From Fidelibacterota bacterium (GTDB lineage: Bacteria > Fidelibacterota > UBA2242), in contig JAUVYH010000013.1 of the NCBI GenBank assembly GCA_030603165.1, forward strand, positions 1 through 34,179: a stretch of DNA of 34,179 bases, written 5' to 3'. Of this stretch, positions 9,376 to 27,219 are shown piece by piece (the stretch's first letter is position 1; each line of letters begins with the position of its first letter). The notes below the pieces were generated by a model, which saw only the letters and a list, made by a program, of their open reading frames with translations, did no database searches and had not been told where the DNA came from. The position numbers and the translations under genes were made by a program.

Positions 9376-9573
9376 TTACCGCCTGCTCACTCGCAGAGAC
9401 ATGCTCCATATAAACAACACCGCTGCAACAGCAATCATGGCAACGCCCACAACAGCGCTGCCCTGTAATAATTCACCTACACCAAAAAACACAAAAAATG
9501 GACAGACAAGCATAAATAGAATTTTAAAGATTTTATTCCTGAGCCGTTGTCTATGTTTTTTTTTATGGGACAT
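9376..9573 (-). CDS. small two-helix membrane protein
   Basis: A 65-residue product from the start chosen at MSHKKKHRQRLRNK. An upstream in-frame ATG (9606) lacks a ribosome site and would add 11 residues. A strongly basic head (KKKHRQRLRNK) is followed by two hydrophobic helices (KILFMLVCPFFVFFGVGE and AVVGVAMIAVAAVLFIWSM), suggesting an N-in inner-membrane hairpin. No family is recognised. The opposite strand also has an open frame, but its composition is unlike a protein. Confidence 0.55.
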   Translation of the reverse strand: MSHKKKHRQRLRNKIFKILFMLVCPFFVFFGVGELLQGSAVVGVAMIAVAAVLFIWSMSLRVSRR

Positions 9574-9910
9574 GATACTTTTTATCCACTTAACATTAAA
9601 ATACATATTCGGGCGATAACAATCAAATCAAATATGAACATTTCTCACTTTAGCCTATCATATAAATTCCAACGGTTATGTTGGTCTCTTAGTGTCTTGT
9701 CAATTTTGTAAAGTCGGACAAGGTCTCTTTGGTTTAATTTGAGCATCATAGAAATAATCAGATTAATTCCGGAATCCACGCTTTACAAGGCTCTCTAAAA
9801 TTCCGACAATGTATCTCAGCTTCTGATTGCCGAGGGAATCAACTAAAATATTTTTCTGGAATATCTCGAAATTTTCCCTTATAATAATAGTACAAATAAG
9901 GAGGGTTCAC
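9574..9910. other. intergenic stretch without a gene
   Basis: About 340 bp between divergently oriented small genes. I see no tRNA-like, repeat or coding signal apart from the AAGGAGGG ribosome site at 9898-9905 for the next gene. Confidence 0.4.
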
Positions 9911-10105
9911 ATGTATCAAAAAGTGCTGTTTCCTTTGTTTTACTACCTTGGCATCGCCAGCGTGGTTATGGGAATTTTGTCAAAACTCTTTAGTTTCATG
10001 ATCTTCGATCTGAAACCATCCCGCTATCTTATGTTCGCCGGTATCTGTGTATTGTACGCTATCGCTACACTACTTTATGACAGGTTTTGTAAGGATAAAT
10101 CCTAA
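9911..10105 (+). CDS. small two-helix membrane protein
   Basis: A 64-residue product from the ATG preceded by AAGGAGGGTTCAC, a clear ribosome site. A longer frame from 9827 has none and its extra residues look random. The helices are at ~5-28 (VLFPLFYYLGIASVVMGILS) and ~37-57 (YLMFAGICVLYAIATLLYD), with a charged tail (RFCKDKS). It has no recognised family. It converges with rlmN, the gap being 26 bp. Confidence 0.65.
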   Translation: MYQKVLFPLFYYLGIASVVMGILSKLFSFMIFDLKPSRYLMFAGICVLYAIATLLYDRFCKDKS

Positions 10106-10131
10106 CATCAAAAAGTTATAAACCTGTTTTA

Positions 10132-11160
10132 TTATCCTTGATGTGCCCGGACATATAACTGCCCGCAAGCCGCTGATATATCCTGACCTTTGCTTCTCCT
10201 GACTGTGATCGCGAAGGGAGCGCGGTACAAATGTTTTAAAAATTGTTCCAACCTGGCTTCTGATGGAGATTTGTAGGGTAAAAATTCATTCTGATTAAAT
10301 GGTATTACATTTACCTTGCAGGGAATCTGTCCCAGCATTTTTATTAATCGCCTGGCGTCCTGTTCGGAGTCGTTAAAGTCATTAATCAAAACATATTCAA
10401 ACGTTACCCGGCGTCTGGATTTTTTCGTATAATACCGAACAGCCGATAATAGATTCCGAAGAGGATATTTTTTATTGACAGGAATCAGTTCATCACGTTG
10501 TGTATCCGTAGTGGCATTCAGTGAAATCGCTAATTTGAAGCGATGTCCTTCATCGGCATAGCGGTAGATCTCCGGCACTATACCAGCCGTGGAAATAATA
10601 ATCCGGCGGGCGGCGATTTCAGGACCCATTTCGCTGTTCAAAATCGACGCCGCCTTAATCACATTATCATAATTCAGAAAAGGTTCTCCCATACCCATGA
10701 AAACGATATTAGTGACTACGGATTGCCGATCCCGTTGAATGAATAATAGCTGGTCGATAATCTCACCGGTCGTCAGATTTCGTTTAAAGCCCATAATTCC
10801 GGTTGCGCAACAGGGACAGGCAATCGGACATCCCACCATAGTTGACAGGCAAACCGTTGTGCGCTTTCCTTCTACCATATAGACGGCTTCGACCGCCTGT
10901 TCATCGGGTAGTCGGAAAAGATATTTGACGCTTTGATCGATTTTCGACTGCATTCTACTGGAAACTCCGAGCAGAGACAGCGTGGCAAGTTTTGATAATT
11001 TGATCTGTAATTCTTTCGATAGATCGGACATTTCCTCAAATGAACGGGCGTTTTTCTTATACATCCAGCGGTAAATTTGTTTTGCACGGAAGGGCTTTTC
11101 GCCAATTTCGGAAACCCAATGCTCCAATTCCGGTAATGTTAATCCTTTAATGTTTGTCAT
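10132..11160 (-). CDS. rlmN: dual-specificity RNA methyltransferase RlmN
   Basis: A radical SAM enzyme that methylates C2 of A2503 in 23S rRNA and of A37 in some tRNAs. The start is set at MTNIKGLTLPELEHWV, giving 342 residues, the usual length; an upstream TTG at 11196 would add 12 unlikely residues. The iron-sulfur cluster motif is C111-PIA-C115-PC-C118 (CX3CX2C). The two conserved methyl-transfer cysteines are visible as Cys104 (TTVC) and Cys332 (SAACGQL). The N-terminal KPFRAKQIYRWMY and the segment FMGMGEPFLNYDNV (the family GEPL-like motif, here GEPF) are also typical. It appears intact and monocistronic, converging with a small membrane-protein gene. Confidence 0.96.
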   Translation of the reverse strand: MTNIKGLTLPELEHWVSEIGEKPFRAKQIYRWMYKKNARSFEEMSDLSKELQIKLSKLATLSLLGVSSRMQSKIDQSVKYLFRLPDEQAVEAVYMVEGKRTTVCLSTMVGCPIACPCCATGIMGFKRNLTTGEIIDQLLFIQRDRQSVVTNIVFMGMGEPFLNYDNVIKAASILNSEMGPEIAARRIIISTAGIVPEIYRYADEGHRFKLAISLNATTDTQRDELIPVNKKYPLRNLLSAVRYYTKKSRRRVTFEYVLINDFNDSEQDARRLIKMLGQIPCKVNVIPFNQNEFLPYKSPSEARLEQFLKHLYRAPFAITVRRSKGQDISAACGQLYVRAHQG

Positions 11161-14140: not shown

Positions 14141-14395
14141 TTAATAGTGATATCTTAACTGAGCAATATATATGATATCTTTCTCAATCTTATATACTAA
14201 TCTGTGGTTGCTATTTATTCTACGAGACCAATAACCTGACAAATTATGCTTTAATGGTTCAGGTTTTCCCAAACCTTGATATTTATTTCGCTGAATATCT
14301 TTTATAAGTTTATTTACACGGATTAACGTTTTTTTATCTGTTTTTTGCCAGTAAAGATAATCTTCCCATGAATGATCTGAAAATAATATTTTCAC
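14141..14395 (-). CDS. yoeB: YoeB-family mRNA interferase toxin
   Basis: An 84-residue Txe/YoeB toxin that cleaves mRNA on the ribosome. Family residues are present at their usual positions: Glu46 (KPEPLKHNLSGYWSRRI), Arg65 (NSNHRLVYKI), and the C-terminal His83 and Tyr84 (LRYHY). It appears complete. The start codon is GTG, overlapping the yefM stop as GTGA, so its translation depends on yefM. Confidence 0.95.
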   Translation of the reverse strand: MKILFSDHSWEDYLYWQKTDKKTLIRVNKLIKDIQRNKYQGLGKPEPLKHNLSGYWSRRINSNHRLVYKIEKDIIYIAQLRYHY

Positions 14396-14643
14396 TCTAT
14401 CAGATCTCGTTCAAATCCACTTCCAGTTTCAAGTTGTTCAATAGATTCAAATAAGTATTTAGCATTTTTTGAACTTTGTAAAAGATAGGCTGTCTCGTTT
14501 AAAGATTCATAATCTTCTAGAGAAAGCATTACTACCGCTTCATTATTTTTTCGAGTAATAATGATAGGATTATGATCTTCACAGACTTTTTTCATGTTTT
14601 TTGCTAAATTTGCTCTTACACTTGTATAAGAAATTGCTTGCAT
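14392..14643 (-). CDS. yefM: YefM/Phd-family antitoxin
   Basis: The 83-residue product starts at the ATG preceded by AAAAAGGAG. The N-terminal DNA-binding part reads MQAISYTSVRANLAKNMKKV, with IIITRKNNEAVVMLSLEDYESL typical of YefM/Phd folds. The C-terminal segment (AYLLQSSKNAKYLFESIEQLE) wraps the toxin in known complexes. It heads the two-gene yefM-yoeB operon and overlaps yoeB by 4 bp. In the family the antitoxin represses the operon together with the toxin through palindromes carrying a TGTACA core, and one such site lies just upstream here. Confidence 0.93.
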   Translation of the reverse strand: MQAISYTSVRANLAKNMKKVCEDHNPIIITRKNNEAVVMLSLEDYESLNETAYLLQSSKNAKYLFESIEQLETGSGFERDLIE

Positions 14644-14661
14644 AAAAGACTCCTTTTTAAA

Positions 14662-14684
14662 GTACATGTACAATATAATGTACG
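14662..14684 (-). promoter_or_regulatory. candidate YefM operator (palindrome with TGTACA core)
   Basis: GTACATGTAC (14662-14671) is a perfect palindrome. It overlaps TGTACA (14667-14672), and a second ATGTAC lies at 14678-14683. The known E. coli YefM operator has TGTACA cores in palindromes. The site lies 19 bp before the yefM start. A TTGACT (minus strand, about 14689-14694) could be a -35 element, but no well-spaced -10 is seen. Confidence 0.6.
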
Positions 14685-14826: not shown

Positions 14827-14979
14827 TCAAAAAAGATTGAATCGAACTCCATCACTCCAATAAGAGAAAGTGACAGGACGATATCCACGGTAGAAATCCT
14901 TTAATTCATGTTCCTTCCGGTAATCAATGAAGAAACTTATTGGTTTGTTCCGTAGAAAATCACACCCTGCACCAATCAT
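14827..14979 (-). pseudogene. C-terminal fragment resembling an outer-membrane beta-barrel protein
   Basis: A 50-residue frame reads MIGAGCDFLRNKPISFFIDY, then RKEHELKDFYRGYRPVTFSY, then WSDGVRFNLF. Alternating aromatic residues and the ending VRFNLF resemble the final strands of an outer-membrane barrel. There is no signal peptide, and an in-frame stop lies just upstream at 14998-15000. This is probably the surviving 3' end of a longer gene. Confidence 0.4.
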
Positions 14980-16041: not shown

Positions 16042-16209
16042 ATTATGCCTCTACATTTATTAATTTGATTGTAATTTAGACATATACATTAAAAAATCGA
16101 CAATTTTCCTGATATTTCCTCTCACTGCATTTCAGGAATTTTTCCATAGACATCTATATCAACTTTCACTATTTTAATGTGGCATTAATTGAAGAGTCAG
16201 GAGTACGGA

Positions 16210-17103
16210 ATGGTTAAAAAAATTCTCACGGTCATGTTGATCGTTTTCATCACCCGAATTAGCTGCAGCGAGGAAGTCTTACCATCGAAACCGGTCTATG
16301 AAATGAGCAGATTGGAAATCGATCAATTATTAACAGACGTCAGTCATAAATCCCTGACAATATCGGAGCGCATCAACTATTACTCGGAACTGTTTTTAGG
16401 CATGCCGTATAAATTAGCCTGTTCCGGCGATGGTCCCTATGCGCTATACGAAACCTGCCCGTTGGTTAATTTTGAGGAAACCAACTGTATGGTCTTTTGC
16501 GAACACGTTCTGGCGCTTTCCATTTCCGACAGCTGGGACAATTTTTTCAATAACCTGCAGCAAATCCGCTACCGCTACGGTATTATCGGTATGAGAACCC
16601 GCAATCACTATACTATGGCTGACTGGCTGCCGGAAAACAGCTGGCTGTTAGATGACGTTTCCCGAAAAGTAGGCGAAAAATATACAAAGACCGTAACCCG
16701 CACCATATCGCATACGGATTTTTTTAAGAATAAAGGTATTACGGATTTACGATATGTGCTGCCGGATCGGGAATTGACTATAGATTACGTTCCTACAGAA
16801 GATTTGTTGAAGATTAAAGATAATGCCCGCACAGGAGATATTCTGGCGCTAATTTTTGCCAACAAAACTGATATCTTTTCTGCCCATATGCTCATGATTG
16901 CCGAAAAGAACGGCGAAAAATATATCCGTGAATCTTCAAGTAGTAAAATGACCACTTTTGATACGCCCTACGATGAGTGGGTTCAAAAAATAAAAGGCTC
17001 GGATCGCTATATCGGTTTATGCTTTATGAGAATTCGTGAAAATCTTGACAGGAAAGGTAAAATCATCCTGCCCTGGGAAATCTCCCGGCTTAAAAACCGA
17101 TAA
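16210..17103 (+). CDS. DUF1460-like secreted Cys-hydrolase (NlpC/P60-like fold)
   Basis: The 297-residue product starts at the ATG preceded by CAGGAG. A signal peptide covers about residues 1-20 (MVKKILTVMLIVFITRISCS). It resembles the DUF1460/amidase-like family in the NlpC/P60 superfamily: LFLGMPYKLA, then the nucleophile block TNCMVFCEHVLALS with Cys93 (usual form DCxTFxE), QIRYRYG, RNHYTMADW, and a later His in FSAHMLMIAEKNG. Family members are thought to act on peptidoglycan peptides. Here the first motif residue is Asn instead of Asp and a second Cys (97) is added, so activity is not certain. The stop codon lies within the left copy of the 60-bp direct repeat. Confidence 0.7.
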   Translation: MVKKILTVMLIVFITRISCSEEVLPSKPVYEMSRLEIDQLLTDVSHKSLTISERINYYSELFLGMPYKLACSGDGPYALYETCPLVNFEETNCMVFCEHVLALSISDSWDNFFNNLQQIRYRYGIIGMRTRNHYTMADWLPENSWLLDDVSRKVGEKYTKTVTRTISHTDFFKNKGITDLRYVLPDRELTIDYVPTEDLLKIKDNARTGDILALIFANKTDIFSAHMLMIAEKNGEKYIRESSSSKMTTFDTPYDEWVQKIKGSDRYIGLCFMRIRENLDRKGKIILPWEISRLKNR

Positions 17104-17157
17104 CCGAAACTTGATTTAAGAATTCCCATACGAAAAAAGAGGGAGATTTGGAGCAAT
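17098..17157. repeat. 60-bp direct repeat, left copy, flanking the six-gene block
   Basis: This matches 21547-21606. The first 43 bp are identical (beginning CGATAACCGAAACTTG and passing through AATTCCCATACG), followed by three mismatches in the last 17. The left copy begins at the last codon of the DUF1460-like gene. Homology stops abruptly on both sides. Confidence 0.92.
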
Positions 17158-17239
17158 GGAGCGATGGAGAATTGTATTTAAAAACCTGAGCGGGTGGATT
17201 TGTTGTTATTGCATTTTCCAATACTCCACTACTCCAAAT
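17146..17239. repeat. imperfect inverted repeat (large hairpin)
   Basis: The arm ATTTGGAGCAATGGAGCGATGG (17146-17167) pairs with the reverse complement of 17218-17239, which reads ATTTGGAGTAGTGGAGTATTGG on the other strand; 17 of 22 positions match. About 50 bp separate the arms. It overlaps the end of the left direct repeat. It resembles a small non-coding interspersed element. Confidence 0.6.
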
Positions 17240-17468
17240 CTATCAACTGAAATATGGCAGGCTGATTATGTGAAATAGCATCACTATTAATGTTGATAGA
17301 ATACAAACTTGAAAATGGAACAATGAAGCATTAGATTATCTATAGAATGGCCAAATTTGTAGATAATAAAAAAGACCCCTCCTATAAGAAATTTCAATAT
17401 TTCTCAATGGATAAATAAAAAATTGACGATATGCGCTGATTAATAACGAGTTAGGACTTATAAAATTG
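17240..17468. other. AT-rich leader before the six-gene block
   Basis: With the hairpin element this makes a 365-bp stretch without a gene. No convincing promoter hexamer pair is found. TTGACG occurs at about 17423-17428 but has no good -10 partner. Confidence 0.35.
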
Positions 17469-17798
17469 ATGAGTATTAAAAATTTTATTATCAGATTATT
17501 TGAAAAAGAAATAATTTCTTGTACTGATAAAGATATTGATCCAATGATGGGTGCTTCTTTATATAAATTAATAAAAGCTAAAGAGGGATATTTTTTTCAT
17601 AAAAAGATTTTTATTATTCAACATATACATTTGGGATATTATAAATGTGAATGTGGTATTCTTGATGAGAAAAAATTAACTGATTTTTCATTAGAACGGG
17701 CAATTTCTGAATTTAAGAAATATCTTAAAAATCATATTGGGAAAAACTATTTATCAAAACTCGATTGGGAGAGAGGAAAGGAGTATTTTGTTAATTAG
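17469..17798 (+). CDS. small hypothetical protein, first gene of the accessory block
   Basis: A 109-residue, lysine-rich and very AT-rich gene product; a TTG directly before the ATG is an alternative start. No strong ribosome site is seen. The middle has FHKKIFIIQHIHLGYYKCEC, where a CEC motif could bind metal, then a C-terminal helix (FSLERAISEFKKYLKNHIG). There is no signal peptide or membrane helix. No family is recognised. It is 67 bp before the next gene, on the same strand. Confidence 0.55.
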   Translation: MSIKNFIIRLFEKEIISCTDKDIDPMMGASLYKLIKAKEGYFFHKKIFIIQHIHLGYYKCECGILDEKKLTDFSLERAISEFKKYLKNHIGKNYLSKLDWERGKEYFVN

Positions 17799-17865
17799 TT
17801 ATCAAGTTTTTGTCTTGATTTTAAGTAATTTCAAAATTAAAATAATTTAACAGAAAGGCAATATT

Positions 17866-18258
17866 ATGGAATTCACAATGTCTCTTGAAGAATTAAAAGA
17901 AAAAGCCCATTTAATAACTAAGTGGGTAGTAATAGGTTATTCAGAAATTCAGTTTAAAGATCCATGGATTGGATATAAATTTGGAAAAATAAGTTTCGAT
18001 AAAATAAGACTCAATGTTAATAAACAGGTATTAGATGTCTCTGGTTCCCTGAAATGGCTACTTAGAAGCAGTGCAAAAAATAAATTAAAAAAGTATCAAT
18101 GGGTTAATGCGATTAGTATTGATGAATCTGATATCGTAATTAATATTGATATTAACATGATTAAGAAAATTTTTAATATCCCACCACCATTCAAAGAATA
18201 TAGCGTAAATAGATTCAGTCTATCAAATGATGGATTAACAATTGAATTAGGAGGATAA
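17866..18258 (+). CDS. hypothetical beta-rich protein A of the accessory block
   Basis: A 130-residue cytosolic-looking protein with a GAAAGG ribosome site. After an N-terminal helix (MSLEELKEKAHLITKW) it shows a beta pattern: IGYKFGKISFDKIRLNVNK, WVNAISIDESDIVINIDIN, then YSVNRFSLSNDGLTIEL at the end. The end pattern (hydrophobic strand, turn, IxIxL strand, short loop, final strand with NDGLTIE) resembles the C-terminal half of the next gene's central domain, so the two may be distant paralogues. No family is recognised. Lipid-binding (TULIP/LmeA-like) folds show such strand patterns, but this is only a guess. It lies 5 bp before the next gene. Confidence 0.55.
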   Translation: MEFTMSLEELKEKAHLITKWVVIGYSEIQFKDPWIGYKFGKISFDKIRLNVNKQVLDVSGSLKWLLRSSAKNKLKKYQWVNAISIDESDIVINIDINMIKKIFNIPPPFKEYSVNRFSLSNDGLTIELGG

Positions 18259-18263
18259 AACAA

Positions 18264-18917
18264 ATGGCAAGATTAACAATAACATTAGATGAGGTTGTGG
18301 AATTTATTAAGCAAAAGCCACTTAATAAAATTAAGCACTTGAATTCCAGTGGAAATAAATTAAAACTCGATTATCATTTCGATACTCCATCTTTGTTTCC
18401 AGATATTGATGTGCCTTTTACGTTAAAATTCGCAAGGTTCTCGAATAACACTGTTTATCTTAAATGGTCGCTGAATGTTAACAAATTAATTGATAAATTT
18501 CTTAATAAAATATTAGAGAGCTTTGCAGATATATTATCCAATTTGGGCAAGAGAATAAATTTTGTAGATGGAATCTCTCGTGATGGAGATAAAATTATAA
18601 TCAGACTTCAGAAGGTTGTAAATGGCATTCAAATAAGTAATATACAAGTAAGAAATGGTACGGTAATTATAGAGGGGGAAAAAGCAAGACCTTCAAGTGG
18701 AAATGGGCCTAACACGAAAAGATATGCTGAATATTATTCTGCAAAACATAAATTCACACATAGATTTGATAATTTTCAGGATTTTGAAAATCATTTTGTT
18801 GCAGCAAAACCTATTGCGTATCACAAGAATTATTATCGTTTTTATCCTTCTTGTGAAAATATACCCATTGGTGATATTGATTCAATTGCTGATTTAAAAA
18901 CGCATTGGAAAACCTGA
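18264..18917 (+). CDS. hypothetical beta-rich protein B with Tyr/His-rich tail
   Basis: A 217-residue protein with a strong TTAGGAGG ribosome site. Residues 1-150 are mixed: LTITLDEVVEFIKQKPLNK, strands LKLDYHFDTP and FTLKFARFSNNTVYLKW, a helix (LNVNKLIDKFLNKILESF), then VDGISRDGDKIIIRLQKVV and ISNIQVRNGTVIIEGEK. The last strands parallel the end of protein A. A linker (ARPSSGNGPN) leads to a separate ~65-residue C-terminal part rich in Tyr, His and Phe (YAEYYSAKHKFTHRF, AYHKNYYRFYPSCENI). There is no signal peptide or clear membrane helix. No family is recognised. Confidence 0.6.
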   Translation: MARLTITLDEVVEFIKQKPLNKIKHLNSSGNKLKLDYHFDTPSLFPDIDVPFTLKFARFSNNTVYLKWSLNVNKLIDKFLNKILESFADILSNLGKRINFVDGISRDGDKIIIRLQKVVNGIQISNIQVRNGTVIIEGEKARPSSGNGPNTKRYAEYYSAKHKFTHRFDNFQDFENHFVAAKPIAYHKNYYRFYPSCENIPIGDIDSIADLKTHWKT

Positions 18918-18969
18918 TCAGTACCGTTTTAGCTACTTGTTTAAATAAGAATGATCACAAGGGAAAAAG

Positions 18970-20268
18970 ATGGCGAAAGATAAAAATATTGATGAAAAGC
19001 AATTCGCATTAGAAAATATTGAGCGCAATATGAATTCTAACACGAAAGTCAACAATCTTATAGTCACCGCCATCACTAATTCTATTTGGAAATACATACA
19101 GGAAGGTGATGTCAAAGAGTCAGATCTTTTGAGATTTATAGAAACTGAAATAACTGGCATTTTCACAAAATATGGAAATGTACATCCATATTACAGCCAT
19201 ATTAAAAGAATGTCCAAATCCATGTCCGAATTTATTCTGAATCAATATGAATCTTTTAATAAACCGAAAGTGGGATTGACAGCAGGCTCAGTTTTCAGGT
19301 GGTTCTCAATAGGTATTTTGGGGTCATTAAGTATCAAGGAAAAAGAAGTTCTAAAGGAGAAGTTTTTCCAAGAATTTGAACAATATGTTCGAAAATTATA
19401 TGCTGAGATTCCAAAAGAACGCTATAAAAAAGATTCAGAAAGAACATTGTCTGGCGAAGAATTATTTAAACAAGTCAAACCATCTGTAGTGGGAATAGCT
19501 ACTGAGGTAGTATCTGGCAGTGGTGTCTTCTATAAACCGGACGGGATTATTGTCACAAACAGACATGTGGTTGGAAATGCAACAGAAGTTACTGTCCGTT
19601 TGCATAATTCTGAAGAATTTCCCGGTAAGGTTATGCACTCCTTCAGAGATATCGATCTTGCGCTTGTAAAAGTATTTATACATGGAGTAAAGATCCTCTA
19701 TCCAAAAACATCCGATGTCACAGAGGAAGGGCAAACGATTTATGCGATTGGTCATCCGGACGAGCTGACAAACACCATAACAAAAGGAACAATAAGCTCA
19801 GTCGGTCGAATAATGGATAAAGTGAAGTATATTCAGCATGATGCAGCAGTAAACCCAGGCAACAGTGGTGGACCATTATTCAATGAAAATGCAAAACTGA
19901 TCGGGATAAATACTTTGGAGCGTGTCAAGATGGATGGAATTGGATTCGCGCTACCAATCAAGATGGATGGAATTGGATTCGCGCTACCAACAAAGTACAT
20001 ATCTGAAAAGTATGCAATATATCAAAACCTACCAGGTGACCCTAATAATAGGGAGTATTGCCCGGTTTGCGGACATTCTTCTGTGGAGCATTCAAAATAT
20101 TGTGAAAATTGTGGTGTGAACTTGGAGCAGTACAAAGAATCGAGCGGTACTAAAACTACAGCGTTTGTCTTAAGAGATATCTGCTCCTGTGGACAAGCGC
20201 GGAGCGCTAATGAGAAATACTGCGAAAATTGTGGGCAGAATTTATCGATTCAAAAAACGGAGGAATAA
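18970..20268 (+). CDS. trypsin-like (S1C/DegP-type) protease with two C-terminal zinc ribbons
   Basis: The 432-residue product has three parts. Residues 1-160 are helical, charged and not recognised. Residues ~165-350 are a chymotrypsin-fold protease with the triad His199 (TNRHVVG), Asp229 (DIDLALVK) and Ser299 (NPGNSGGPL). Two zinc ribbons follow: Cys364/367/378/381 and Cys405/407/418/421, the second with a CxC first knuckle. No signal peptide or PDZ domain is present, so it probably acts in the cytosol or on membrane partners. An 11-residue exact-like tandem duplication (320-330 and 331-341, KMDGIGFALP) lies in the strand after the catalytic Ser, near the substrate pocket. The stop overlaps the next start (TAATG). 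Confidence 0.9.
   Translation: MAKDKNIDEKQFALENIERNMNSNTKVNNLIVTAITNSIWKYIQEGDVKESDLLRFIETEITGIFTKYGNVHPYYSHIKRMSKSMSEFILNQYESFNKPKVGLTAGSVFRWFSIGILGSLSIKEKEVLKEKFFQEFEQYVRKLYAEIPKERYKKDSERTLSGEELFKQVKPSVVGIATEVVSGSGVFYKPDGIIVTNRHVVGNATEVTVRLHNSEEFPGKVMHSFRDIDLALVKVFIHGVKILYPKTSDVTEEGQTIYAIGHPDELTNTITKGTISSVGRIMDKVKYIQHDAAVNPGNSGGPLFNENAKLIGINTLERVKMDGIGFALPIKMDGIGFALPTKYISEKYAIYQNLPGDPNNREYCPVCGHSSVEHSKYCENCGVNLEQYKESSGTKTTAFVLRDICSCGQARSANEKYCENCGQNLSIQKTEE
19925..19990 (+). repeat. perfect 33-bp tandem duplication inside the protease gene
   Basis: 19925-19957 and 19958-19990 are identical, duplicating KMDGIGFALP in frame. The base identity shows that it is recent compared with divergence elsewhere in the block. 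Confidence 0.93.
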
Positions 20269-20720
20269 TGAAATTCTGGCAAAAAAAACCGACAACTGTG
20301 AATAACATCGTTAAATGGCTAGATTCCATTTTTCAAAAAATGGGTTTTATTCTATCTGATCATGAAATAGAAGGTACTAATATTAAAACATGGGAGATAA
20401 TGTACGATCAAATACCATTTTTTATCAGAATAGATGAAATTGAATCTGATATTATTTTTTTCGAATTACGTTCTATGCTATGTGAAATACCCCGGCAAAA
20501 TATTCTTCCATTTTATAGGAAATGTTTGGAATTAAATTATGATTTATTTGGTGGAACCATCATACTCGCTGAAACAAAAGTCTGTTATGTTCAAAAAAGA
20601 CAAATTGGATATATTACAGAAGAAGAGCTACTCGGAATGGTTGGTAATCATCTTTATGCAGCTACAGAGCTCTTGAGCAATCTATCGGGGGAATTCGATA
20701 TATTAAAAATAAATGACTAA
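20268..20720 (+). CDS. YbjN-like protein (secretion-chaperone-like fold)
   Basis: A 150-residue protein starting at the ATG overlapping the protease stop by one base, with GGAGG upstream, so translation is coupled. It fits the YbjN family (related to type III secretion chaperones): WEIMYDQIPFFIRIDEIE, IIFFELRSMLCEIPRQN, ILPFYRKCLELNYDL, FGGTIILAETKVCYVQ, then ITEEELLGMVGNHLYAATEL. Family members usually bind partner proteins rather than catalyse. The coupling suggests that the protease is its partner. Confidence 0.75.
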   Translation: MKFWQKKPTTVNNIVKWLDSIFQKMGFILSDHEIEGTNIKTWEIMYDQIPFFIRIDEIESDIIFFELRSMLCEIPRQNILPFYRKCLELNYDLFGGTIILAETKVCYVQKRQIGYITEEELLGMVGNHLYAATELLSNLSGEFDILKIND

Positions 20721-20752
20721 TTTGAAGAAATTAATTGGTACTGTGAGAAAAG

Positions 20753-21373
20753 ATGAGTGAAAATGAATCAAAATATACATTTTTAATGAGAAAAATGGGT
20801 GAAGGAATGATGAAAGGTATTGACTTGGCAACTGGAAAAGATGTTGAGTCAATTAAAAAATTTGTTAATCAACAGAAAACACTTCATCCAAATTTAGTAG
20901 ATTCCCCCGGAGAGTTGTCTGATAGAATTTTAAAAAAGAAAAACTGGTATGCAGCAGCTGTAAGTTTTTGTTATGGTCTCGGAGGTGCAGTCACAATTGC
21001 ACCCAATTTAGCCCATATATGGAGGATACACGGACGCTTAGTTCTTACAGTTGCTTATATTTACGGTTATGATTTAAATGACCCTGAAAGGAGAGAGGAG
21101 ATTGCTCTTTGTTTTGCTTTAAGTAGTGGGAATGAAGCTTTGAAAAAGTTATTAAAAGAAGCTGGTTTAGTGGGTGCTAAAAAAGCCCTTCTCACCCAAG
21201 CCTCGAAAGAAATAATAAAAAAACTGCCAAACAAAATTATTACCATTGCTGGGAAGAAAAGTTTAGTAAATGTGACAAAGGTAGTTCCTGTCGCTGGAGG
21301 TATTATATGTGGAATAATGGATTTTTTTTCAACCAAAGGTATAGGAAAAGCTGCCAAAGCATATTATTCATAA
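20753..21373 (+). CDS. EcsC-family protein
   Basis: The 206-residue product matches EcsC-family features: DSPGELSDRILKKKNWYAAA, then the block GGAVTIAPNLAHIWRIHGRL, VLTVAYIYGYDLNDPERR (IYGYDL at 103-108) and the C-terminal VVPVAGGIICGIMDFFSTKG with IGKAAKAYY. The C-terminal part contains Gly-rich hydrophobic segments that may associate with membrane. EcsC proteins are found in many bacteria; the role is poorly known. It is the last gene of the accessory block and 32 bp after the YbjN-like gene. Confidence 0.82.
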   Translation: MSENESKYTFLMRKMGEGMMKGIDLATGKDVESIKKFVNQQKTLHPNLVDSPGELSDRILKKKNWYAAAVSFCYGLGGAVTIAPNLAHIWRIHGRLVLTVAYIYGYDLNDPERREEIALCFALSSGNEALKKLLKEAGLVGAKKALLTQASKEIIKKLPNKIITIAGKKSLVNVTKVVPVAGGIICGIMDFFSTKGIGKAAKAYYS

Positions 21374-21427
21374 TTAAGGTATGTATTTGCTAACGAACCA
21401 TTTATAGATAGTAAAGTCAAGAATATA

Positions 21428-21457
21428 TTTCACCGTAACCACGACGGTTGAAATTTT
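21428..21457 (+). terminator. possible terminator after the six-gene block
   Basis: TTTCACCGT and ACGGTTGAAA pair with a one-base bulge, and TTTT follows directly (21454-21457). It lies 55 bp after the EcsC-family stop. The stem is modest and the T-run short. Confidence 0.4.
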
Positions 21458-21534
21458 ACTAAAGTCGCACCGCCTAATTTCACAGAGGATGTTTCAAGTT
21501 TTAAAACACAACAGGTATTTCTAACCAATCGTAC

Positions 21535-21552
21535 CTGACGCCATAACGATAA
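21535..21552. repeat. 18-bp repeat CTGACGCCATAACGATAA, left of the AbiE module
   Basis: Near-identical to 23855-23872 (CTGACGCCAATACGATAA, a TA/AT swap). The two flank abiE and the palindrome field. The last bases overlap the right copy of the 60-bp direct repeat. Confidence 0.55.
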
Positions 21553-21606
21553 CCGAAACTTGATTTAAGAATTCCCATACGAAAAAAGACGGAGAATTGG
21601 AGTAAT
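21547..21606. repeat. 60-bp direct repeat, right copy
   Basis: Matches 17098-17157, 57 of 60 positions, with the first 43 identical. The two copies bracket about 4.4 kb containing the six accessory genes and nothing else. Confidence 0.92.
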
Positions 21607-21611
21607 AAAAT

Positions 21612-21633
21612 TGAACTATAAAAATATGGTTCA
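21612..21633. promoter_or_regulatory. candidate AbiEi operator (inverted repeat)
   Basis: TGAACTATA and TATGGTTCA form nine-base arms with one mismatch around AAAA, about 50 bp before abiEi. AbiEi antitoxins are known to repress their own operon through inverted repeats. The match to any known operator sequence is untested. Confidence 0.45.
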
Positions 21634-21681
21634 TTATTTCTGTAAATGTATTATATTAACAGAAAAATGGAACCGGGGCTT

Positions 21682-22281
21682 ATGGAAACAATTATTCAAT
21701 ATTTTAAAAATCACAGTGGCTATGCGAGGATGAAAGAACTGAAAGCAGCATCTTTTCATACCCGTGATATCGCCAATCTGGTTGAAAGCGGTATTATTGA
21801 GAAAATCAAACCCGGTCTTTATCGTTTGGTAGATATGCCTGAATCAAGCAGCATTCCTGACAGTTATATTGATGTCATGCAGGCAATACCCAAGGGGGTA
21901 ATATGTCTGCTCTCCGCTCTTGACTATTATCACCTGACCACCTACAATCCCTCTGAAATTTATGTAGCTATTCCCATGTCTGAAAAATTTCCATCCATCC
22001 AATATCCTCCTATACGTAAATATTTCTTTCCTGAACGATTTTACTCTGCCGGGATTAATACGGTAAAATCCGGAAAACATATTATTCGTATTTATAATCG
22101 AGAAAAGACGATCGCCGATATGTTTCGCTATCGTAAAAAACTTGGTGATGACCTGGCGCTGGAAGCCCTGAAAACTTATCTAAAACGGAAAGATGCAAAC
22201 ATTAATCGCCTGCGTGAATATGCTGAAATTTGCCAGGTAAAAACCATTATGCTGCCATATCTTAAAGCTCTGGTTGGTTAA
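21682..22281 (+). CDS. abiEi: AbiEi-family antitoxin/transcriptional regulator
   Basis: The 199-residue product from the chosen start METIIQYFKNHSGYARM has the N-terminal winged-helix part (MKELKAASFHTRDIANLVES) and GIIEKIKPGLYRLV of AbiEi antitoxins. The C-terminal part includes ICLLSALDYYHLTTYNPSEI and IRIYNREKTIADMFRYRKKL. Upstream in-frame ATGs (21646, 21667) have no ribosome site; the chosen one has only a weak GGGG, so the exact start is uncertain. It overlaps abiEii by one base (TAATG), the usual order for this type IV system, which can act in phage defence. Confidence 0.88.
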   Translation: METIIQYFKNHSGYARMKELKAASFHTRDIANLVESGIIEKIKPGLYRLVDMPESSSIPDSYIDVMQAIPKGVICLLSALDYYHLTTYNPSEIYVAIPMSEKFPSIQYPPIRKYFFPERFYSAGINTVKSGKHIIRIYNREKTIADMFRYRKKLGDDLALEALKTYLKRKDANINRLREYAEICQVKTIMLPYLKALVG

Positions 22282-23204
22282 TGAGAAATAAGAAAAATCA
22301 TACAAAAGATCTGGCTGCATCCATAAGAGCGCGATTGCTGAATATTGCAAAAATAAATCAGCAGGATTTCAATGCAGTATTGCTTCAATATTTCCAGGAA
22401 CGATTTCTACACCGATTATCAGTTTCACCTTATAAAGACAACATGATTCTAAAGGGTGCGCTACTATTTCTGATAAATCAGATACCTCGCTTGCGTCCGA
22501 CCAAAGATATTGATTTTCTCGGAGTTGCCATAACTAATGACCAAGACAATGTAGAGGGTATTATCCGGAATATACTCATTATAAAAGCCGATGATGGTGT
22601 AATATTTGACCCTGATTCGGTTTCATCTGAAATCATTACTGAGCAGGCGGAATATCCTGGGATAAGAGTTTATTTTGAATGTTCTTTAACTACAGCTCAA
22701 AAGCGCCTCCGGCTCGACATCGGTTTTGGGGATGAAATAATTCCTCATCCCGTCACAATGGATTTTCCCGTTCTTTTAGATGATCAAGCCATTCCTTCGG
22801 TTTTAACATATTCGCTTGAATCCTCGATTGCTGAAAAATTTGAAGCAATAGTTAAGTACAATTTTTTAACCAGCCGAATGAAAGATTTTTATGATATCTG
22901 GTATATTTCGAATAATTCCGAATTCAATTATCAGCAGCTGAAAGCCGCAATATTTACGACCTTTAAAAATCGTTCAACACTTCTCATGGACTATGAAATT
23001 ATTTTTAGTGCTGATTATAAATTGGACGAGTCAAAGAATGTGCAATGGAAAGCATTTTTAAATCGTAATAAAATTGATTGTCATTTATCTTTTTCGGAAA
23101 TCGTGGAGAAATTGGAGAGGTTCCTTCTGCCTATTTGTATATTGGAAAAAGAAGAAAAATATCCGGTAATTTGGGACCCGACATATAATCATTGGATTGA
23201 ATAA
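22281..23204 (+). CDS. abiEii: AbiEii-family nucleotidyltransferase toxin
   Basis: A 307-residue DNA-polymerase-beta-type nucleotidyltransferase. The N-terminal helical part leads into ILKGALLFLI and the acidic pair in RPTKDIDF (Asp76, Asp78). Further family motifs are LRLDIGFGDEI, ESSIAEKFEAIVKY and SRMKDFYDIWYI. Related AbiEii/MenT enzymes transfer nucleotides to tRNA ends and stop growth. The motif order and length suggest an intact toxin. A GSxxxD-type Gly is present as KG in LKGALL, the common form in this family. Confidence 0.9.
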   Translation: MRNKKNHTKDLAASIRARLLNIAKINQQDFNAVLLQYFQERFLHRLSVSPYKDNMILKGALLFLINQIPRLRPTKDIDFLGVAITNDQDNVEGIIRNILIIKADDGVIFDPDSVSSEIITEQAEYPGIRVYFECSLTTAQKRLRLDIGFGDEIIPHPVTMDFPVLLDDQAIPSVLTYSLESSIAEKFEAIVKYNFLTSRMKDFYDIWYISNNSEFNYQQLKAAIFTTFKNRSTLLMDYEIIFSADYKLDESKNVQWKAFLNRNKIDCHLSFSEIVEKLERFLLPICILEKEEKYPVIWDPTYNHWIE

Positions 23205-23348: not shown

Positions 23349-23391
23349 TTCAAACTTTTGGGGCATGTAAAAATGCATATCAAAGTTTGAA
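23349..23391. repeat. 43-bp hairpin before a lipoprotein fragment
   Basis: TTCAAACTTT and AAAGTTTGAA are perfect ten-base arms, with a smaller GCAT/ATGC pairing inside. It ends immediately before an AAAGGAAAATACA ribosome-site-like sequence, so it was perhaps an operator or leader hairpin of the now broken gene that follows. Confidence 0.6.
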
Positions 23392-23400
23392 AGGAAAATA

Positions 23401-23534
23401 CAACTGCTAAAAAAATACCAATCCTTTTTGCAATTATTATCGGTATGCAAATCGCCTGCACAGGTGAAAAAGAAACTCCGAAACCACTATACAAAATGAC
23501 AAGTGATTATATTTGTCCGGCAGCTGCCGGATGA
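23401..23534 (+). pseudogene. broken lipoprotein 5' end
   Basis: The frame reads AKKIPILFAIIIGMQIACTG, then EKETPKPLYKMTSDYICP, a clear lipoprotein signal peptide with lipobox MQIAC. The expected ATG before the Lys residues is missing (the sequence there is ACAACTGCT). The frame stops at 23532-23534 after running into a GC palindrome (CCGGCAGCTGCCGG). Start and most of the body are lost. Confidence 0.6.
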
Positions 23535-23948: not shown

Positions 23949-23978
23949 TCCCTTTGGGACGATTCCATTATTATTACT
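23949..23978. repeat. dispersed GTCCCTTTGGGAC-type palindromic repeat, copy 2
   Basis: TCCCTTTGGGACGA followed by TATTATTACT, as at 3492-3521. It overlaps the end of the minus-strand amidase gene. Confidence 0.5.
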
Positions 23979-26900
23979 TTTTTAAATAATTCAGAATTGC
24001 CTGCATCACTTCGTCCCTTTTCCCTTGATCCGGGATGGTCTCGAAAGGGAATCCAAAAGCAACCACGTTGTAATCTCCTTTAAAGCCGACAGCCGCGCTT
24101 GTATTGTTTTCCCTGTATCGGAGGATTGTAACGGCGGTTGAATCCGCCGGTTCGATCGCGTCCGGCGATTCCGCAGCATACAGACTCGGGTTTAGCAGGG
24201 TGTTGAACTCAAAAGAATTGCCAAACGGCATAAATAGTGAATCAACAGAATAGACGCCTCCGGTTTTAACCGCATGGTCAGTCCGCCATTTGTATTTTAA
24301 GTTGTTTTGAACAAAGTTGATCGATACAGAATCGTCCCGAACATTAACAAAGGGATCCGTTCCGATGTATGCCCCCGAAATGAATATACTGCCGCCTGAT
24401 TGACAGTATGTTTTCAGTGATTCCTGTAATGGAACGGGAAAAACCTCAAACTGTTTCTCCAGAAAAGGTTTGGGGCCTCCGGTAAGCTTTTCTTCTCCCA
24501 TAATAATGTCCACAATATCATATCTTGCCAGTTTTACCGCGCCGTCCATTACGGCTTCATCGCTGACAGAAACAAAACCGTATCCGGCAGCGACAATCGA
24601 TTTGCCATGATTAATGACAAAATCATGGGTGTTTCCCGCAACAACTGTACATTCATAATCGGCATTACTGGCGCCGTGTCCCGGTGAATCATCGTCCAGC
24701 CAGGGAGAATCCGCTGAAAGATCATACTGGTCGCCGGTAAACGCCAGCTCATAACCGTCCGCAACACCCTGGTCCCAGAAATTGGCAAAACCCAGGTATT
24801 CATCAGTTTCTAATGTTGCCGGAGGCGCAACCCGGTCAAATCCATTAACAATGCAGACCGGCTTTTCACTACCGTCAAGATAGCAAACCGACAGTATCTC
24901 CGATGGAAAACTTTCACCTCCGTCATTAACCGCGGTCACCCTAAAACTGTAAATCACTCCCGGTTGAATATTCCGCAAGGTAACATTATTTCTATTTACC
25001 AATTTCCCGTTATCAAAATCCTTATCGTCTAATCGAGTATAAAGGATATACTTATCCGTCATAGCGGTAATTTCCAAAGGGTCAATCGTCGGTTTCCAGC
25101 GTAACGCTATATTGTTACCGTTTACAAGCTCAGCCTGAAAATGGCTTACCGGCAGCGGCTGGACAACATAATCGGTTTGATATTGGGTTGCCATAAACCG
25201 TAAAAAGGCTTTATAAATTGCCCGGCTGGCGTCAAAACGAAAGCGGGGATCGTTCCCGAATTTCATATCCAGAAAATTATGATGCGATAACAACTCCAGC
25301 AGGACCGATGGCACATTGGGGCGCCATGCTTCACTGTATCCACGGTCCCATAGCGCCCGGCGATTCCACAGGGGATCATACTTTGCCTGAATATCATCAA
25401 CGATCTGAGTTTGCAGAATGTCGGCGAGATCACGATTTGCCAGACGCGACTGACCATCGGGAAATTTTAACGTGCTATCCGCTCCGTCGGTATTATAAAT
25501 CGAGAGTGTTCCAATCACAATCCCGGTGCGGGTTCTGCCGGCGTCGGTATGAAAGGCGAAGCTCAGATCAACCGGAATTCCCAGACCTTTTTCATCACGC
25601 TTTTTATTCGGTCCAAAAGGCGCTCCCCTTAAATAATTCACCCACTCTCCGCGGCATTGATAGTCATCGGCATAATCAATTGAATCGCCATTCAGATTAT
25701 AGACCAGCGTGTCGGGCATACCGGCATACTGCAAATAATAGCGGGCGCCTTCGACATATCGTGGTCGTCCGCTGATCTGACCTTCCCGGGAAATATTGCC
25801 CATTCCCCCTCCGAAACGCACAGCGTCGGCGGTGACGATTGTTTCCGTCTGCCGGCTCCGGTTAGTCAATACAACTTTGCCGATTTCCGGATTACTGCCG
25901 GCACGGAACTGAAACTTTCCCAGAAATATCCAGGTCCCGCCGCCGATCTGCTGGTTGACCAGAAATTCCGTTTTCCCACCGAGATGATATACCGTATAAT
26001 GAGCATCATCGACACTGTTCTCTAAAGACTTATAAGCGATAGTTACCGCATAATAGCCATCTTCCGGAATTTCGGGTATAAACTGAATTTCAGCCGTAGC
26101 AGTCGCGTCCGATGCAATATATCGATATGAACCCTGTCGAAAGGGATTGACGCCGGTTTCATAGGGAGGATTTCCGATTGCAAATCCCGATGAGTCGGGC
26201 GCCGATTGAAATGTGATGCTTGTATCCGATGAGATTTCAAAATAGCTATCAGACGGGCTTGATGAATCATTATCTACAATGACTTCATGAGTCTGAAGAT
26301 CCCGCTCTCTGGGGATAAACACATTAGCGCCGGCATTTTCCAGCATGGGAACCAGGTAGGGAACGGTAAACGACATTGGAAACAGGTCTTCAACGGTTTG
26401 AAAAACCCGGGCGCGCTGCCACTCCCAGCGCCGCAATTTATTTTCATAATACCAGCCGTGACTGTGCCAGAGAGCGATATTGCGCTGATTGAGCCCTTTT
26501 GTCGGCGTCCGGGGCTTGCTGATATTTCGCACAACCGGCAAAGGACGTTCATAATTAACAGGCAGACGCGATGTGTCCCAATCCGATTTTTGAGGACGAA
26601 AATAATTAGGGACCAACTCTTCAACAGGAAAATTTTTGGAATATATCGTGAGGTCATAATTACGATAGCGCCATCCTAATTGTTTGCGCATGGTTTTATA
26701 AACCTTTTTTATCTTTTCTGATCGATATGGAATATATCCCAGAACCTGGTTATAATAAATATGGATCTGCCGCTCTTGTTTACTTACCCGAACACTATCG
26801 ACCCGCAGCCACCGTGACATCTGAACCGGTTCTTCTTTCCTGATGCATTTCCGGGCAAAAGATTCGGCTTTTTTATGAATTGTTTTTGTCTTTCGATCCA

Positions 26901-27015
26901 TACCGGAATAATCGTATCGTGGTTTCTGGATCGACATCATGGCGCAACCCGTAATAAACAGACCGGCTAATATAAAACCAGTTACTTTTATAGCGGCTCT
27001 AATGCTTTTTTTCAT
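23974..27015 (-). CDS. lipoprotein: N-acetylmuramoyl-L-alanine amidase-like with golvesin-type and Fn3 domains
   Basis: The start at MKKSIRAAIK, preceded by GGAG, gives 1013 residues; a longer frame adds 49 unlikely residues. The lipobox is LFITGC (Cys24). An amidase_3-like zinc domain is split: the first metal-ligand region lies at LWHSHGWYYE (His184 or His186), and later parts are SFAFHTDAG (His489) and VLLELLSHHN (Glu574). Between them sits a golvesin C-terminal-like beta domain (~270-403: GNPPYETG, YIASDATATAEI, TADAVRFGGG). A fibronectin type III domain follows (~620-710: ALRWKPTIDP, YSFRVTAVNDGGESFPSE). The ~300-residue tail resembles a flavodoxin/GATase-like fold. It probably trims cell-wall peptides or is a polysaccharide-associated surface enzyme, as in related FCB proteins. 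Confidence 0.82.
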   Translation of the reverse strand: MKKSIRAAIKVTGFILAGLFITGCAMMSIQKPRYDYSGMDRKTKTIHKKAESFARKCIRKEEPVQMSRWLRVDSVRVSKQERQIHIYYNQVLGYIPYRSEKIKKVYKTMRKQLGWRYRNYDLTIYSKNFPVEELVPNYFRPQKSDWDTSRLPVNYERPLPVVRNISKPRTPTKGLNQRNIALWHSHGWYYENKLRRWEWQRARVFQTVEDLFPMSFTVPYLVPMLENAGANVFIPRERDLQTHEVIVDNDSSSPSDSYFEISSDTSITFQSAPDSSGFAIGNPPYETGVNPFRQGSYRYIASDATATAEIQFIPEIPEDGYYAVTIAYKSLENSVDDAHYTVYHLGGKTEFLVNQQIGGGTWIFLGKFQFRAGSNPEIGKVVLTNRSRQTETIVTADAVRFGGGMGNISREGQISGRPRYVEGARYYLQYAGMPDTLVYNLNGDSIDYADDYQCRGEWVNYLRGAPFGPNKKRDEKGLGIPVDLSFAFHTDAGRTRTGIVIGTLSIYNTDGADSTLKFPDGQSRLANRDLADILQTQIVDDIQAKYDPLWNRRALWDRGYSEAWRPNVPSVLLELLSHHNFLDMKFGNDPRFRFDASRAIYKAFLRFMATQYQTDYVVQPLPVSHFQAELVNGNNIALRWKPTIDPLEITAMTDKYILYTRLDDKDFDNGKLVNRNNVTLRNIQPGVIYSFRVTAVNDGGESFPSEILSVCYLDGSEKPVCIVNGFDRVAPPATLETDEYLGFANFWDQGVADGYELAFTGDQYDLSADSPWLDDDSPGHGASNADYECTVVAGNTHDFVINHGKSIVAAGYGFVSVSDEAVMDGAVKLARYDIVDIIMGEEKLTGGPKPFLEKQFEVFPVPLQESLKTYCQSGGSIFISGAYIGTDPFVNVRDDSVSINFVQNNLKYKWRTDHAVKTGGVYSVDSLFMPFGNSFEFNTLLNPSLYAAESPDAIEPADSTAVTILRYRENNTSAAVGFKGDYNVVAFGFPFETIPDQGKRDEVMQAILNYLKK

Positions 27016-27219
27016 AAAATACTCCAAAACAAAATTAACGACACGGCTTAAACGTCTAAAGTTAAGACGATTTGGATTCAGGATAAAGGATAAATGCCAA
27101 TATAATTTTCGAGTCATCGAAAATGAATTGGACAAATAGTTCAAGCGTACATAAATATTCAATTTTTAAAACGGGATAATCCTGAAAAAATCGTTTAAAC
27201 AGCCCTGACGCAATTTCAC

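Follow-up and report, generated by a model that had tools for sequence, protein, structure and literature searches.

In Hachiman and AVAST, a pro-effector encoded next door is activated by a trypsin-like protease (PMC12799240), and proteases of this type recur in conflict systems together with dedicated partner genes such as Trypco (PMC7159879). EcsC proteins are common proteins of unknown function that have been listed as phage-defence candidates; one such candidate of the EcsC family, the single-gene PDC-S29 catalogued in PADLOC, is among those listed for a Streptococcus thermophilus strain (PMC11514479). The YbjN family has been linked to stress (PMC5398634, PMC3181261). Here we describe a locus from a Fidelibacterota genome in which an EcsC gene closes a run of genes that also encodes a trypsin-like protease and a weakly YbjN-like protein. 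The window is the whole stretch of DNA analysed (34,179 nucleotides), and all coordinates refer to it unless another locus is named.

The ORF listing placed six genes on the + strand between positions 17469 and 21373, with products of 109/110, 130, 217, 432, 150 and 206 residues. Their sizes, order and strand agreed with the first-pass annotation, as did the TAATG sequence (20266-20270) that couples gene 5 to gene 4, its start overlapping the stop of gene 4. Gene 1 (17469..17798, +; 109 aa) matched no family. Gene 2 (17866..18258, +; 130 aa) and gene 3 (18264..18917, +; 217 aa) are orphans, predicted to be beta-rich and possibly paralogous. Gene 4 (18970..20268, +; 432 aa) encodes an HtrA-type Trypsin_2 protease with a double zinc ribbon, gene 5 (20268..20720, +; 150 aa) a protein with weak likeness to YbjN and type III secretion chaperones, and gene 6 (20753..21373, +; 206 aa) an EcsC-family protein matching the PADLOC candidate PDC-S29. 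Ribosome-binding-like sequences were found 5' of genes 2 to 5, that of gene 3 (AGGAGG) lying within the 3' end of gene 2. A search of positions 17000 to 21800 revealed no terminator-like site; both observations fit a single transcript. There was no Rfam match.

The block had been described as AT-rich relative to its neighbours. This held for overall composition (G+C 0.326, against 0.387 in the remainder of the window) and for third codon positions (GC3 0.16-0.34 in the six genes, against 0.44-0.56 in spmA, spmB, rlmN, the amiA-like gene and other core neighbours), with the caveat that abiE, yefM-yoeB and an LRR gene in the same window are AT-rich as well, so that low G+C is here a general mark of accessory genes. 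Within the block, gene 1 is far more AT-rich than gene 4 (GC3 0.16 versus 0.34). This difference speaks for a block composed of unrelated cargo, in which a hotspot has gathered a cassette-type EcsC gene, a pair of protease and chaperone genes and several orphans that share a strand but no function. The short gaps, the placement of the ribosome-binding-like sequence of gene 3 within gene 2, the TAATG overlap between genes 4 and 5 and the lack of a terminator-like site are operon-like and argue against such a composite, as does the enclosure of the whole gene set by both copies of a direct repeat.

On its left the block follows an AmiA-like core gene (16189..17103, +; PF07313, Pfam E 8e-27), whose place is conserved in relatives; the gene itself is conserved in the family, and its orthologues in same-genus genomes are 91-92% identical. 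On its right lies an AbiEi-AbiEii type IV toxin-antitoxin, or abortive infection, pair (21646..23204, +; Pfam and PADLOC). In the same-genus genome G221, a single contig carries the amiA-like gene, about 160 bp of spacer and then the same abiEi (89-91% DNA identity), and the block is absent. The G221 spacer contains sequence related to both the left side (17314-17374) and the right junction (21597 onward). In G220, of the same genus, some 2.4 kb of other sequence separates the amiA-like gene from a 1062-aa gene that corresponds to 23974-27162 of the window, with neither abiE nor the block. Since the block is absent from G221 and both block and abiE are absent from G220, the amiA-like and 1062-aa genes enclose a variable slot. 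Presence or absence in relatives had been proposed as a check, and it came out in favour of acquisition: its absence from a genome of the same genus, its foreign composition, the flanking repeat unique to this site and the kinship of the EcsC gene with cassettes from another phylum together indicate that the block is an accessory insert, horizontally acquired, beside the AbiE pair. An assembly chimera is unlikely, both flanks being syntenic at ~90-93% with same-genus contigs.

The surroundings of the slot showed further variation. A YefM-YoeB toxin-antitoxin pair (14141-14673) marks a second variable slot to the left of the amiA-like gene and is missing there in G220. An intergenic stretch of about 122 bp (23382-23502) shares ~80% identity with DNA next to the amiA-like gene of two other genomes (G214 and G215) and is perhaps a dispersed intergenic repeat. 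Sequence resembling TGGAGTAATGGAGTGATGG forms the basis of an inverted intergenic repeat at 17144-17241 and 14846-14861, which is present in the G221 spacer too.

The block had also been described as exactly bracketed by a 60-bp direct repeat. The repeat is real, and it is absent from the rest of the 3.3-Mb genome; the bracketing is looser than claimed, as the two copies (17098..17157 and 21547..21606, both +) are identical at 57 of 60 positions and stand 311 bp ahead of gene 1 and 173 bp beyond gene 6, respectively. The left copy begins at the final codon of this AmiA-like gene, 6 nt ahead of the gene end, and sits where the spacer after this gene lies. Sixty base pairs exceed the length of a usual target-site duplication, and the block has no recombinase: searches of the six genes against Pfam, PHROG and NCBIfam returned no transposase, recombinase or integrase. 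A transposon or prophage was rejected for want of a recombinase, the sole informative PHROG match being the protease (phrog_11383). The repeats probably arose by duplication of part of the spacer downstream of amiA; on the simplest reading, the incoming DNA would have brought a second copy of this spacer or gained one through recombination. Recombination between the copies would excise the block and leave an empty site with one copy.

Gene 6 is the member of the block with the clearest relatives. It matched Pfam EcsC (E 9e-12; 45.6 bits, cut-off 30.4) and, over residues 32-203, PADLOC PDC-S29 (E 1.3e-28, 98 bits, above cut-off), and by these profile matches it belongs to PDC-S29, a phage-defence candidate. 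Matches to designed armadillo repeats in the PDB span merely a short helical stretch and were set aside. Genome scans for EcsC used an alignment of gene 6 with artificial variants, which widened the search patterns, and tblastn with the actual gene 6 product confirmed the matches. The GTDB-wide scan identified a protein 75% identical to gene 6 in a Desulfosporosinus MAG (Bacillota; locus L042), and a search of the class of this MAG identified a second, 74% identical, in another Desulfosporosinus genome (L058). Each of these genes is followed by an imperfect hairpin of 70-80 bp with TAAC-type and GTTA-type ends; a perfect GTTAGGT core occurs among them, and successive sites show complementarity between the R' end of the first and the R'' end of the second. 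A structural attC scan detected three sites at L042 and one at L058, compared with 0.1 and 0.05 in shuffled sequence. Both EcsC genes thus lie in integron cassette arrays (L042:7861-9687 and L058:9853-12774), where a zinc-ribbon/HEPN-like protein and unknown proteins are the products of the adjacent cassettes, and genes 1 to 5 are absent. The L058 array begins directly after pyrE, with no integrase within the 13.6 kb read. An identity of 74-75% across phyla, together with single-gene attC cassettes, indicates that this type of EcsC gene moves between phyla alone, and its mobility as an integron cassette is the strongest new fact of this study.

These cassettes bear on two alternative explanations. 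The block itself could be an integron cassette array, with the 60-bp repeats as attC sites; its nearest EcsC relatives are cassettes, and the host genome carries an integron integrase above the curated cut-off (contig C17, positions 9431-10408, our locus L070). The structural scan found no attC site between 16900 and 21800, although the same scan detected those of both Desulfosporosinus loci, and the 60-bp repeat showed no stable single-strand fold and folded no better than its shuffles. We therefore rejected an array, a reading already contradicted by these results and now very improbable. Integrases above the same cut-off also occur in 6 of 15 family relatives. The composite of unrelated cargo gains from the same loci, because EcsC stands there as a cassette in two genomes without the other five genes, and also from the variability of the slot, which holds abiE as well. 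Despite the operon-like layout, we regard this composite as a serious possibility that falls a little short of an even chance, and as serious as an operon in which protease and EcsC act together.

More distant relatives of gene 6 were found close to conflict genes; whether homologues sit in defence islands was a check that the first-pass annotation had proposed. An EcsC/PDC-S29 gene lies directly downstream of the type I restriction gene hsdR (L060:6543-10826), and another is located 46 bp upstream of csm6 in the CRISPR region of an Allochromatium plasmid (L035:5980-7785). Distant EcsC relatives adjoin a double-GTPase (DO-GTPase) gene at L043 and TerY-P genes on Klebsiella plasmids.

Gene 4 contains a Trypsin_2 domain (residues 183-313, E 4e-31) and a C-terminal double zinc ribbon (DZR), above the Pfam cut-off, and matches HtrA in NCBIfam. 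The catalytic His, Asp and Ser of the HtrA trypsin domain are present, in the motifs TNRHVV, DIDLALV and GNSGGP, which align to HhoA in the PDB. Pfam returned no PDZ domain, the DZR standing in its stead, and no relative of the N-terminal ~165 residues was found. The zinc ribbons of the earlier proposal were borne out by the DZR match; as to the proposed cytosolic location, the protein, judged from hydropathy, has no evident signal peptide: the N-terminus is hydrophilic (mean hydropathy -1.33 over 25 residues), and there is no strong membrane segment on the same measure. A perfect 33-bp in-frame tandem duplication (19925..19990, +) repeats the KMDGIGFALP strand, 11 residues within the catalytic domain; it reflects either recent slippage or an assembly error, and may have damaged the protease. 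The catalytic domain is closest to HtrA/HhoA/DegP, and the longer plasmid matches to gene 4 include trypsin-like proteases of heat-resistance islands. Given also the stress link of the YbjN family (PMC5398634, PMC3181261), the block could serve protein quality control, with a cytosolic HtrA-like protease, its YbjN-like chaperone and an EcsC protein at the membrane jointly handling envelope or heat stress. However, the plasmid proteases match gene 4 only from residue 108 on, gene 4 differs from DegP/HtrA in having neither PDZ nor an evident signal peptide, and patchy presence in a single genome beside abiE better suits defence or mobile cargo. We consider a quality-control role unlikely.

The family assignments of the first-pass annotation stood for Trypsin_2, DZR and EcsC, all above cut-off, and fell short for YbjN. 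Gene 5 scored 19.7 bits against Pfam YbjN, below the cut-off of 22 and hence under the family threshold; the only other support for the likeness is a match to PDB 2plg (E 0.003). Genes 4 and 5 are coupled in a manner reminiscent of cargo-chaperone pairs, which suggests that the product of gene 5 may control the protease. Genes 1 to 3 matched no family profile in Pfam, PADLOC, PHROG or NCBIfam. Structure models of genes 2 and 3 had low confidence (pLDDT 43 and 39), too poor for a fold search. Both products are predicted to be beta-rich, and a paralogous relationship is weakly suggested by their alignment, whose score was reached by 11-17 of 500 shuffles. Matches of gene 3 to Vibrio filamentous phage proteins were not significant (E 0.2-0.5).

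Searches for a conserved six-gene system did not find one; they covered the phylum with genes 1, 2, 3, 5 and 6 plus the N-terminal part of the protease, and GTDB species with gene 3 and EcsC. The protease was represented in the phylum-wide search by its N-terminal part only, since HtrA-type domains occur everywhere. Among 244 other genomes of the phylum there was no convincing relative of any block gene, save one EcsC gene in a single genome at 26% identity; two weak matches to gene 2 (L077 and L078) look unrelated. Genes 1 to 3, gene 5 and the protease N-terminus had no relative in any collection searched, with single-sequence scans that detect only close relatives, and no second example of protease, YbjN-like and EcsC genes together was found. 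The earlier idea that the six genes travel as one module was not supported, as the two nearest EcsC loci are without the other five genes and the block carries no mobility machinery. As for a six-gene system, the searches of 244 phylum genomes and the two close EcsC loci neither demonstrate nor exclude it.

The analysis shows the gene order, the domains, the insertion and the transfer of EcsC; every protein interaction in the following working model is inferred. By analogy with trypsin-like proteases encoded with effector or partner genes elsewhere, the protease may be held by the product of gene 5 and may have EcsC or the beta-rich proteins as its targets. The HtrA-type zinc-ribbon protease would be the active enzyme, kept inactive by the YbjN-like protein bound to its N-terminal helical part. 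Stress or infection would free the protease, which would then cleave or activate membrane-associated EcsC or the beta-rich partners, and growth would be halted or the membrane protected. An acquired stress or defence operon of this kind, in which a YbjN-like-held protease acts with a membrane-active EcsC effector, is a tentative proposal that we rate slightly below even. It is favoured by the insertion relative to G221 and G220, the low GC3, the PDC-S29 match, the EcsC relatives near conflict genes, the closeness of EcsC to Desulfosporosinus as against a lone 26% relative in its own phylum, the complete set of catalytic motifs, the coupling of protease and YbjN-like genes and the Hachiman and AVAST precedent. 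Counting against it, no second locus combining protease, YbjN-like and EcsC genes was found, genes 1 to 3 have neither relatives nor confident structures, the YbjN match is sub-threshold, the block lacks the customary nuclease or sensor domains, the 33-bp duplication may have harmed the protease, and EcsC, solitary as a cassette elsewhere, may be an independent passenger here. A fuller version, in which the six genes form a complete undescribed defence or stress operon with a cytosolic protease held by a coupled YbjN-like inhibitor, a PDC-S29 membrane effector that the activated protease processes, and two paralogous beta-rich sensors or targets, seems improbable to us.

The locus differs from mobile elements already described: an integron gene cassette is followed by attC and a transposon or integrative element encodes a transposase, recombinase or integrase, none of which the block has. 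It shares with defence trypsin-like proteases (PMC12799240, PMC7159879) the position of the protease gene beside candidate effector or regulator genes. Pfam and PADLOC matched no MBL nuclease, Trypco, vWA-MoxR or STAND component in the block, and it thus differs from the Hachiman/AVAST nuclease-protease pair, having no MBL-fold or other nuclease domain. Gene 4 shares its catalytic domain and the GNSGGP and GIGFALP motifs with HtrA/DegP/HhoA; unlike these, it has an unrelated N-terminal part and a C-terminal double zinc ribbon, with no PDZ and no evident signal peptide. Gene 5 resembles YbjN/type III secretion chaperone-like proteins (DR1245, AmyR) in its weak profile likeness and as a small protein beside a possible client, but it scores under the Pfam cut-off, and the client is putative. 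The Desulfosporosinus cassettes encode the closest EcsC proteins (74-75% identity), and differ in being single genes with attC sites and HEPN-like or unknown neighbours, with no protease, YbjN-like gene or genes 1 to 3. Gene 6 matches the single-gene candidate PDC-S29 over most of its length and likewise has relatives near defence genes; here, in contrast, EcsC is the last gene of an operon-like block with a protease and a YbjN-like gene. Its association with protease and chaperone-like genes, along with the cross-phylum cassettes, provides a handle on EcsC function and its possible proteolytic control.
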